Positions 7,242-11,167 of a stretch of DNA of 64,000 bases are shown here, piece by piece. This stretch comes from Bacilli bacterium. Its GTDB lineage: Bacteria; Bacillota; Bacilli; Paenibacillales; NBRC-103111. Location: positions 1 to 64,000 of the forward strand of contig JAQBPR010000190.1 of assembly GCA_028287395.1 (NCBI GenBank), read 5' to 3'. Both the position numbers and the translations under genes were made by a program. The notes below the pieces were generated by a model. It searched no databases, was not told where the DNA came from, and saw only the letters and a program-made list of their open reading frames with translations. The stretch's first letter is position 1, and each line of letters opens with the position of its first letter.

Positions 7242-8351
7242 TTACATTCCATATAGATTGCTAAGATTATTAGCCGTATGCGTCCAACTAAAACGATTGA
7301 CTACATCTTTCCTAGCCTGTTTACCTAATGAGCTTGCCAAAGCCGGATTTCGCGCTAATTTCTCCATTATGATTGCAAAATCATGAGCGCTGCTGTAGCG
7401 ATTAATGAGATAACCATTTTTCGCATGACTTATAATTTCTTTAATGCCGCCTATTCGCGAAGCTACAACCGGAATACCTGCAGCCATCGCTTCCACATTA
7501 ACGAGCCCAAATGCTTCATGCTTTTGCGATGGACATACAAAGCAATCAGCTAACCAATATACCTCATGCATGCTGTGGTGTGATTTATATCCAATGAATT
7601 TGGCAGTAATATGCAAGCGTTTGGCCAAATCTTTCAATTTTGCGATATAGCCTGGTTTCCCGTTTCCCGCAATGATCATTTTTACATTTGGCACCGATTT
7701 ACGCACTTGACTAAGCGCTTTCATCATGACTGGAATCCCTTTACGCGAAATGATTCTCCCCGCGAACGCGAAGACAAACGAACCTTTAAGCCCATATCTA
7801 CTACGCAGCTGCTTGCGTTGAGTTAATGTGGGCGGTCGAAATTGATTTAAATCAACACCCAAATATACCTGCTTTATTTTGTCATGCAAATGATTAAATC
7901 GCGACTTTAATTCACGTTCTAAGGAGCTGCTATTTGCTACAATCATATCCGCTCTAGACAAATGCTTTGCAGCACGATCCCTTGATATCATCGGTGCTGA
8001 CACAAAGGTTAAGGAATGCAAAAACAAGGAAATGGGTATGTTCGGAAAAAGATTTTTAATGGGTGTGATGAAACGCGGACGGTTGTCAATTTGAATCCAA
8101 TCATAATGTTTACCACGAAGGTATGCCAGCACAGATGCCAAATAACGGCCTGGGGTTCCTGATGGAACACGGATATACTTTAAATTCCGTGAAGTCGAAA
8201 CATGCGGATACTTAGGATGGCGACGACTAATAAGCGTTACTTTGTGATGGCGAGCGATTTTCTTCGCAATGGCGTGCATGCATATTTCCACAGAGCCGCC
8301 TTTGAAAGCGGGTACCGGGATTTGTTCAGGCGCAATCATTAAAAGATGCAT
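7242..8351 (-). CDS. GT4-family glycosyltransferase (CotSA-like)
   Basis: 369 residues with a GT-B fold. The N-terminal acceptor domain starts MHLLMIAPEQIPVPAFKGGS. The C-terminal nucleotide-sugar domain includes VFAFAGRIISRKGI (about 193-206) and the EX7E retaining motif in HEAFGLVNVEAMAAGIPVV (about 284-302). It transfers a sugar from an activated donor, acting in the cytoplasm. Similarity in layout to spore coat protein CotSA and the adjacent YheC/YheD gene suggest spore-coat polysaccharide. ATG follows AAAGGAAGTG. Donor and acceptor are not readable. Confidence 0.87.
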   Translation of the reverse strand: MHLLMIAPEQIPVPAFKGGSVEICMHAIAKKIARHHKVTLISRRHPKYPHVSTSRNLKYIRVPSGTPGRYLASVLAYLRGKHYDWIQIDNRPRFITPIKNLFPNIPISLFLHSLTFVSAPMISRDRAAKHLSRADMIVANSSSLERELKSRFNHLHDKIKQVYLGVDLNQFRPPTLTQRKQLRSRYGLKGSFVFAFAGRIISRKGIPVMMKALSQVRKSVPNVKMIIAGNGKPGYIAKLKDLAKRLHITAKFIGYKSHHSMHEVYWLADCFVCPSQKHEAFGLVNVEAMAAGIPVVASRIGGIKEIISHAKNGYLINRYSSAHDFAIIMEKLARNPALASSLGKQARKDVVNRFSWTHTANNLSNLYGM

Positions 8352-8498
8352 TATCCGCTACACTTCCTTTTATGCCAACATCATAATTTGAATATGCATC
8401 ATTATCGTATGTAAAATAAAGGCTTTTGTTCAAGACATCTTCGATTTTCAGGAATCGTGACCGCAAACACCCTTCAGAACCCGCCAAACAGCTAGACA

Positions 8499-8682
8499 AC
8501 TGCAAAAGTGCAACTGCATTCGGTCAAAAACGGGTTTTAGAGCCTTCTTACTGCAAAAATACAGGTAGATTTGCTGATGGGAGACCATTTTAACGAATAT
8601 GGAGTCAATCAACTGTATTTTTGCAGGTAATCGGCTGGATAATGGGATAATCGAGCTTATAAGCTGTACTTTTGCAGTTGGC
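8499..8682. repeat. Four-copy symmetric CTGCAAAARTRCAG repeat array
   Basis: Copies at 8500-8513 and 8551-8564 read CTGCAAAA-; copies at 8613-8626 and 8664-8677 are in inverse orientation (CTGTAYTTTTGCAG). Start-to-start distances are 51, 62 and 51, so copies 1/4 and 2/3 share one symmetry centre at 8588.5, while the DNA between them is not palindromic. Copies 2 and 3 are perfect 14-base inverted repeats. A minus-strand frame crosses the array, but its translation has low complexity and no ribosome-binding site, so I do not call a gene. The flanking stretch 8352-8498 shows nothing recognisable. Confidence 0.75.
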
Positions 8683-8726
8683 AGCTTTGAGGCGGCAATT
8701 AGAAAGAATGCTAATAGAGTGAGTTC

Positions 8727-8747
8727 AAAAAGTGGCGACGAGGAGTA
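8727..8747 (+). repeat. 21-base head sequence shared with the region upstream of larE
   Basis: The 21 bases contain GTGGCGACGAGGAGTAA and recur with one difference on the minus strand at 21343-21363. They end where the structured element begins. GAGGAG resembles a ribosome-binding site, and an 11-codon frame starts at ATG 8748, but it ends inside the first hairpin. Confidence 0.6.
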
Positions 8748-8971
8748 ATGGGTGTGCTTGTAAAGTCGAAAGTTTTGCTTTAGCAAAACTGGCTTCGGAA
8801 GCATATGCTTGTGCCGACTTTGAAAATGAGTTTCCTCCCTACTACTAACGGGCAACGAATAAGGTTGCCTGTTAGCAGTATTCGTCCATTCAAGAAACTC
8901 ATTTTGAACTGAGGTAAAAGTTTTCGTAAGAAAACTCACTTCGTAAGCATGAGCTTAAAGCACATTCATTA
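8746..8971 (+). ncRNA. Structured 226-nt intergenic element, possible RNA or palindromic mobile repeat
   Basis: A closing helix pairs 8746-8759 with 8958-8971 (14 pairs, two of them G-U only when read as plus-strand RNA). Inside, in order: 8762-8768 with 8815-8821, enclosing the perfect hairpin 8771-8790 and the palindrome AAGCATATGCTT (8799-8810); 8821-8834 with 8894-8907 (13 of 14), enclosing a 17-pair hairpin 8840-8856/8864-8880 with one mismatch and one G-U; the hairpin 8919-8936; and the hairpin 8944-8957, which abuts the closing helix. The blocks 8767-8810 and 8916-8955 are diverged direct copies of each other. No coding gene fits. I cannot match it to a named RNA family. Confidence 0.55.
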
Positions 8972-9020
8972 CGCAACATAGCTATTCTTTTTATACAAAC
9001 TCTATATAGAGCATATATGA

Positions 9021-9580: not shown

Positions 9581-11167
9581 TTAAGGCGCTGTTTCCAAAA
9601 ACTTAGCGTTCGGATTTTTGTCGATTGCCGTTCTAAGCGCATACTCATTTTCAAATAATGCAACATAATTCCCTTTTTTATCTTTGACTAGCTGAGAGTT
9701 AATGCGGAATTTTCCGGGATCGATATGATCATCAATCAACCAACGTGCAAATTGAAAATTCATGCGATGCAGTTGAATATCTACACCATATTCTGATTTC
9801 ATGCGATGCTCGAGAACTTCAAACTGAAGCTGTCCCACCACACCAAGGATCATTTCATCAAAACCACCTATGTTACGAAATACTTGAATGGTGCCTTCTT
9901 CGGTTAATTGATCAATACCTTTTTGGTATGACTTTTGTTTTAAAGCATTTTTCACAGTCACCTTGCTAAATAATTCGGGCGAGAAGGTAGGCAGCTCATC
10001 GAAAATAACCTCTCCACCTTGACATAACGAATCACCAATTCGAAAAATACCGGGGTCAAACAGACCAATAATATCACCAGGATAGGCAACATCCACAATA
10101 TCGCGATCCTGAGCCAAAAATTGCTGCGGCTGAGAGAGCTTAATATCTTTTCCGGCGCGAATATGCTTCACACTCATGCCTCGTTCAAATTTACCAGAGC
10201 AAATACGCAAAAATGCGATTCGGTCCCGATGTGCAGGGTTCATATTCGCCTGAATTTTAAATACATAGCCTGTGAATTGTTCTCCAAACGGTGAAATTTC
10301 TCCTGCACTGCTATTTCTTGGTTCTGGAAATGGCGCCAATTGTAAAAAATTATCAAGGAAGGTTTGAACCCCAAAATTATTGATTGCACTGCCGAAAAAC
10401 ACAGGGGTTAATTCCCCCTGTCTTACTTTATCGTAATCCAACGGATCACCAGCCACATCAAGCAATTCTAGATCTTCACACAGCCTTTGATGTAAATAAT
10501 CGCCTGCGATTTGTTTCACCAACGGGTCTTGATATCCATCAACTTTGGCAACCTGTATTTCATTATGCTCTCCGCCTTGAAACAGCTCCAATTGCACCTT
10601 CACACGGTCATAGACACCGCAAAACTGCTTCCCCGAACCAATCGGCCAGTTCATAGGAAATGATCTAATCCCTAATACCTGCTCCAATTCCTCTAATAAT
10701 TCAAATGGACTTTGTCCTTCACGATCCATTTTATTAATAAATGTAAAAATCGGGATGCCCCGCTTCCGGCATACTTGAAACAGCTTCTTCGTTTGCGTCT
10801 CTACACCTTTGGCAGAATCAATTAACATCACGGCGCTATCAGCCGCAGTCAATGTACGATAAGTATCCTCACTGAAATCTTGATGGCCTGGCGTATCCAA
10901 TATATTGACACGATTTCCGTTATAATCAAACTGCATGACGCTTGAAGTAACCGAAATTCCTCTTTGCTTTTCAATCTCCATCCAATCCGATGTAGCATGC
11001 TTGCTTGCCTTACGTGCCTTTACTGTACCTGCAAGGCGAATCGCTCCGCCAAAAAGCAGCAGTTTTTCCGTCAATGTCGTTTTACCCGCATCAGGATGTG
11101 AGATAATCGCAAACGTCCTTCTTTTCTGAACCTCTGCCTGTATTTCTTCGCTTAATGATGTTGTCAT
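9581..11167 (-). CDS. prfC: Peptide chain release factor 3
   Basis: 528 residues, full length. The N-terminal GTPase domain has the P-loop SHPDAGKTTLTE (about 24-35), switch II DTPGHQDFSEDTYR (about 90-103) and NKMDRE for guanine recognition. It is followed by EF-G-like domains 2 and 3 (PAHRDRIAFLRICSGKFERG; QFARWLIDDH near the C-terminus). RF3 releases RF1/RF2 from the ribosome after termination. ATG follows GGGAACAAGGGA. It is transcribed toward the hairpins at 9549-9567. RF3 is not universal in Firmicutes, but this one looks intact. Confidence 0.95.
   Translation of the reverse strand: MTTSLSEEIQAEVQKRRTFAIISHPDAGKTTLTEKLLLFGGAIRLAGTVKARKASKHATSDWMEIEKQRGISVTSSVMQFDYNGNRVNILDTPGHQDFSEDTYRTLTAADSAVMLIDSAKGVETQTKKLFQVCRKRGIPIFTFINKMDREGQSPFELLEELEQVLGIRSFPMNWPIGSGKQFCGVYDRVKVQLELFQGGEHNEIQVAKVDGYQDPLVKQIAGDYLHQRLCEDLELLDVAGDPLDYDKVRQGELTPVFFGSAINNFGVQTFLDNFLQLAPFPEPRNSSAGEISPFGEQFTGYVFKIQANMNPAHRDRIAFLRICSGKFERGMSVKHIRAGKDIKLSQPQQFLAQDRDIVDVAYPGDIIGLFDPGIFRIGDSLCQGGEVIFDELPTFSPELFSKVTVKNALKQKSYQKGIDQLTEEGTIQVFRNIGGFDEMILGVVGQLQFEVLEHRMKSEYGVDIQLHRMNFQFARWLIDDHIDPGKFRINSQLVKDKKGNYVALFENEYALRTAIDKNPNAKFLETAP

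Follow-up and report, generated by a model that had tools for sequence, protein, structure and literature searches.

A multibranched 226-nt palindromic structure in a Paenibacillales genome is very probably the inner part of a small transposable repeat that carries host leader hairpins

A 226-nt sequence at 8746-8971 folds into a closed structure with several branches and occupies part of a 1.2-kb intergenic region whose two neighbors, prfC (9581-11167; release factor 3) and a gene for a group 1 glycosyltransferase (7242-8351), are both located on the minus strand. It lies in a stretch of 64,000 nt (hereafter the window) from a bacterium of the order Paenibacillales, and a preliminary description had regarded it as a free-standing plus-strand RNA. 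This locus raises the question of whether such a structure is a single RNA at all. The plus strand was predicted to fold at -86.3 kcal/mol, against -49.8 +/- 4.5 kcal/mol for shuffled sequences (z -8.06), and none of the 200 shuffles was as good. The minus strand also gave a strong fold (-77.8 kcal/mol, z -6.9). The predicted plus-strand fold agreed with the architecture described earlier, that is, a 14-pair closing helix including two G-U pairs, branches nested inside it, and a last hairpin abutting it. We found no protein-coding gene within the element, in accordance with the same description; a 163-aa ORF on the minus strand (8448-8939) was rejected as a mechanical reading frame crossing repeats. 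The fold of this stretch is real, yet it is not one single RNA.

The 226 nt make up the interior of a many-copy small transposable repeat (MITE). A BLAST search of the element against its own genome found matches in dozens of places, mostly as pieces, because stretches 32-75, 104-145 and 180-221 of the query are optional. Copies lacking these stretches measure 166 bp, and their ends read GAGTGTGTTCAAAAA...TTTTTGAACACACTC. These termini lie outside 8746-8971, indicating that the bounds given to the element were too small and that it extends to inverted repeats on both sides (Table 1). The terminal inverted repeat (TIR) had 53 matches in the genome with one mismatch or fewer, while its reversed control had one. 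About 40 elements were bounded by the TIR on both sides, either complete or internally deleted; their TIR-to-TIR lengths range from 68 to 286 bp, with clusters near 166, 206 and 245 bp. As expected of a MITE, the elements are short and non-coding (no gene occurs in the window copy), and dispersed copies have the TIRs in common. A second subfamily (B) has the ends GAGTGTGTTTAATAAGT. Bare copies, copies with one insert and copies with two inserts are all present in the genome, and three further copies (L013-L015) appear as deletions between the two modules. The window copy is longer than the bare 166 bp because of three palindromic inserts of ~42 nt each. Adjoining it, at 8477-8695, there is another dispersed repeat (CAACTGCAAAAGTGCAACTGCATTCGG...), whose other copies in the genome show 92%, 88% and 67% identity.

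Table 1. Features of the element in the window
Feature	Position	Strand	Remarks
Whole element: MITE, A subfamily, 286 bp (166 bp without inserts)	8717..9002	+	Flanks 5' TAATA, 3' TATAT; target duplication no longer exact
Left terminal inverted repeat	8717..8733	+	Consensus GAGTGTGTTCAAAAAGT; this copy GAGTGAGTTCAAAAAGT
Right terminal inverted repeat, decayed in this copy (TTTTTATACAAACTC)	8986..9002	-	TIR matches in genome
Inner closing helix, 5' arm (the closing helix of the preliminary description)	8746..8759	+	Fold, copy comparison
Inner closing helix, 3' arm (pairs with the 5' arm)	8958..8971	+	Fold, copy comparison
Central hairpin of MITE core, 5' arm	8823..8834	+	Fold, copy comparison
Central hairpin of MITE core, 3' arm	8894..8905	+	Fold, copy comparison
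Insert 1: leader hairpin module copy, ~40 nt	8766..8810	- (sense = minus)	Covariance model; absent from bare copies L060, L061, L065, L067
Insert 2: 42-nt palindrome of another repeat family, CTAACGNGCAAC...GTTGC	8839..8880	+	In central-hairpin loop
Insert 3: second leader hairpin module copy	8914..8956	-	Covariance model

An exact 5-bp target duplication, such as TATAA, TTTTA, CTTTA or TTTAA, flanked 11 of the 38 copies (2.1 expected; shuffle maximum 7), and no flank identity was seen at 4 or 6 bases in these 38 copies. The count of copies in the same genome, which had been proposed as a check on the structure, thus turned out in favor of a mobile palindromic repeat: ~40 TIR-bounded copies with 5-bp target duplications. 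The duplication of the window copy itself has decayed (Table 1). Substitution was highest at the MITE ends (10.1%; closing helix 2.9%, central hairpin 2.1%), and such fast decay of the ends is what one might expect of an immobile element. We found no transposase with matching TIRs in the assembly, which is 89% complete and comprises 268 contigs, of which several begin within B-subfamily elements. A TA-type target with an IS630/mariner transposase had been suspected from the flanking TA; it was replaced by the 5-bp duplication, and the assembly, at its 89% completeness, contains no match to Pfam DDE_3 (PF13358). A 1.66-kb TIR pair in another genome (G024; L192:905-2562) was considered as an autonomous element and rejected, as it consists of two MITEs around a peptidase-like gene, together resembling a composite element, and encloses no transposase.

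The three inserts of the window copy differ in kind. Insert 2 is a clean 42-nt insertion found in none of the other MITE copies read, and its palindrome gave 14 strand hits in the genome (L361-L372) and none in the control. The other two were matched by a covariance model of a leader hairpin module. Site 1 alone is occupied in L007-L009, site 3 alone in L005, L010 and L012, and neither in L060, L061 and L067. At both sites 4-5 nt were replaced, so these are not clean insertions, and, insert 2 excepted, we infer the direction of the change, gain or loss of modules. The blocks 8767-8810 and 8916-8955 had been interpreted as an ancient duplication. Their relatedness was borne out, but they are two members of a widespread repeat that occur separately in other copies. 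Modules are also carried by B-subfamily MITEs (L020-L025) and by MITEs from two or more further genomes (in G024, L197 and L203; in G392, L209). In genome G369 (L154), module copies are followed by a sequence like the MITE interior, with no Shine-Dalgarno sequence. The modules inside the MITE have no Shine-Dalgarno sequence and are probably passengers.

Outside the MITEs, the module consists of a conserved GCUUACGAWG and a hairpin, standing directly before a Shine-Dalgarno sequence or 5S rRNA. The covariance model was built from 32 copies of other genomes and gave 89 matches in the window genome, including a few that score weakly or fall on the other strand of a palindrome. Under a strict rule (Shine-Dalgarno sequence, start codon and open frame), 37 of 48 non-MITE modules precede a gene, compared with 0 of 48 in antisense and 1.0% of random positions; part of the spacing to AGGAGG is owed to the model itself, whose last two columns coincide with the AG of the Shine-Dalgarno sequence. 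A looser reading placed 42 of the 48 before a Shine-Dalgarno sequence. The same position was found for 27/30 modules in G001, 8/10 in G021 and 6/10 in G055, where the remaining four stand directly before 5S rRNA. At L380:1501-1544 and L383:1501-1544 the module lies between 23S and 5S, and the 5S identified by Rfam begins at the next base. Leader modules between the 23S and 5S rRNA genes were also seen at L041, L045 and L046. According to NCBIfam, the genes behind modules include rpmI, rplQ, rpsT, hslU, accC, glyA, lspA, rapZ, rimP and dapA, some being partial sequences below the curated cut-off. In the atp operon (L094), the intercistronic gaps are filled with tandem units, namely 2, 2 and 3 before atpG, atpD and atpC. 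Three whole genomes gave 61, 25 and 78 module matches. Among 300 genomes of the class, the listed matches (at most 20 per genome) were almost confined to the order, and in a search of 84,980 species genomes all 119 stretches among the matches listed belonged to Paenibacillus/Paenibacillaceae. Phage and plasmid collections gave no match. Head-to-tail module arrays with a 40-42 bp period were observed at G015:C1:1735599-1736058 (at least 11 copies) and G048:C31:54530-54769 (at least 6 copies).

The same TIRs and plan were found in genomes G024, G022, G048 and G392, G395 being a longer and less clear case. No fewer than three further genera of Paenibacillaceae have diverged relatives, and the MITE is older than the window genome. 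Its core keeps a constant length across genera (163-172 bp) with a diverging interior. These relatives bear on the proposal of a free-standing plus-strand structured RNA, present in several copies and acting through its closed multibranch fold. Such an RNA would account for a fold far beyond chance and for core helices less substituted than the loops (2.1-2.9% vs. 6.8% for the rest), a difference that leaves room for structural constraint and was counted against an explanation by the MITE only. It would also agree with the retention of the closing helix across genera despite changed sequence. The arms of this helix were very different between lineages and complementary within each element; they were compared within each element because MAFFT misaligned the changed helix, and RNAalifold on the cross-genus alignment recovered the TIR helix only. 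This is real conservation of a palindrome, and judging from the sequences it would fit selection on either DNA or RNA. In the other-genus elements, which share ancestry, G-U exceeded A-C by 21 to 4 on the window's plus strand. However, TIRs and target duplications delimit the unit, its branches are optional inserts differing between copies, and the closing helix decays within the genome without compensatory changes, none being found in this helix or the central hairpin among 30 copies. The preliminary description had favored the plus strand on the basis of pairs that are G-U there and C-A on the minus strand. This argument was weakly echoed in the genome, where counting substitutions at one base of a pair yielded 34 G-U vs. 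13 A-C by copies and just 14 vs. 8 by distinct events. Moreover, promoter-like and terminator-like sites were no commoner than in shuffles, and no Rfam family scored above its gathering score in the window, at the module loci or when five loci were searched permissively; the threshold was reached by rRNA and tRNA genes alone. The free-standing RNA was not supported, and we regard it as extremely improbable.

Another explanation is that the element has been domesticated as a minus-strand cis-acting element of the prfC-glycosyltransferase gap, affecting the mRNA of both genes as other transcribed structured MITEs can. Both neighbors are on the minus strand, on which the modules are also in sense, and the structured repeats BOX, Correia and ERIC are reported to affect co-transcribed genes (PMC3049150). 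Against this, the distance from the element is ~365 nt to the start of the glycosyltransferase gene and ~580 nt to the stop of prfC, the two window modules have no Shine-Dalgarno sequence, and a promoter-like site (8378-8350) stands between the element and the glycosyltransferase start codon, making such a role very unlikely. As for the ~40-nt module, it might be a mobile palindromic repeat whose insertion before ribosome-binding sites is simply tolerated, with no function there. Its occurrence in MITEs, tandem arrays and many loci points in this direction, as do its varying copy number at orthologous gene junctions (none to several in 30 genomes) and the equal numbers of G-U and A-C in its stem. 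The strict rule of strand and spacing relative to the Shine-Dalgarno sequence and 5S speaks against it. In addition, GCUUACGAWG is retained while the stem covaries (6 of 8 pairs, 22 double-change cells, 0/500 shuffles; weaker on the MAFFT alignment), and the module precedes the same genes in different genera, e.g., accC and atp genes. A functionless module therefore seems rather unlikely to us.

We consider it very probable that the 226-nt structure forms the interior of a non-autonomous MITE, spread by a transposase supplied in trans and holding two host leader modules and one unrelated palindrome. The core of this MITE would be a 166-bp set of nested palindromes, made of the terminal repeats, the inner closing helix and the central hairpin, which presumably multiplied in the genome by transposing into AT-rich targets of 5 bp with the putative trans-acting transposase. 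The window copy would then have taken up three short palindromes, two of them 5'-leader hairpin modules of the host and one an unrelated repeat. The leader module is likely to be a separate feature of the host lineage that travels in the MITE as a passenger. The composite resembles one designed multibranched RNA because every insert folds on itself, and it illustrates that stacked palindromic repeats can yield a convincing "designed" RNA fold.

Neither the MITE nor the leader module was described in the open-access literature searched. BOX of Streptococcus pneumoniae, with the arrangement boxA-boxB(n)-boxC, has been proposed to be a non-autonomous MITE (PMC3049150). Compared by plan only, it is likewise structured, intergenic and many-copy, with outer parts that pair and optional self-folding inner modules (PMC3049150), but it belongs to another host lineage, and the inner modules of the window element are a host leader hairpin that also stands alone before ribosome-binding sites. 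RUP, Correia/NEMIS and similar structured MITEs are also short, non-coding, TIR-bounded and strongly folding with target duplications, whereas the window MITE has a 5-bp target duplication and no IS with matching ends was identified. Insert 2 and the leader module are short many-copy palindromes, nearest in kind to REP/REPIN with RAYT transposases (PMC3733652, PMC3116915); the MITE differs from these in its long TIRs and target duplications. The main text of a REP survey makes no mention of Paenibacillus (PMC3733652).

The MITE belongs to a known kind, and the surprising part is the leader hairpin. We tentatively propose RNA processing or 5'-end protection of the downstream RNA as its most likely role, and this is preferred over a purely translational role because the module also precedes 5S rRNA. 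Bacillus mRNAs have 5'-terminal stabilizing hairpins, and a hairpin close upstream of the Shine-Dalgarno sequence could similarly protect the downstream RNA; the leader module differs in that a single conserved unit recurs in each genome at tens of genes, forms tandems and precedes 5S rRNA as well. There is a nearly even chance that Paenibacillaceae and their relatives use a repeated RNA unit before the ribosome-binding sites of tens of housekeeping genes and 5S as a processing or stability signal, which MITEs captured and can carry to new places. The hairpin marks the ribosome-binding sites of core genes, including those of ATP synthase subunits, ribosomal proteins L35, L17 and S20, HslU, AccC, RimP and RapZ, and it also marks 5S rRNA across Paenibacillus-type bacteria. 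If the module directs RNA processing or decay, it would constitute a global, lineage-specific layer of expression control.
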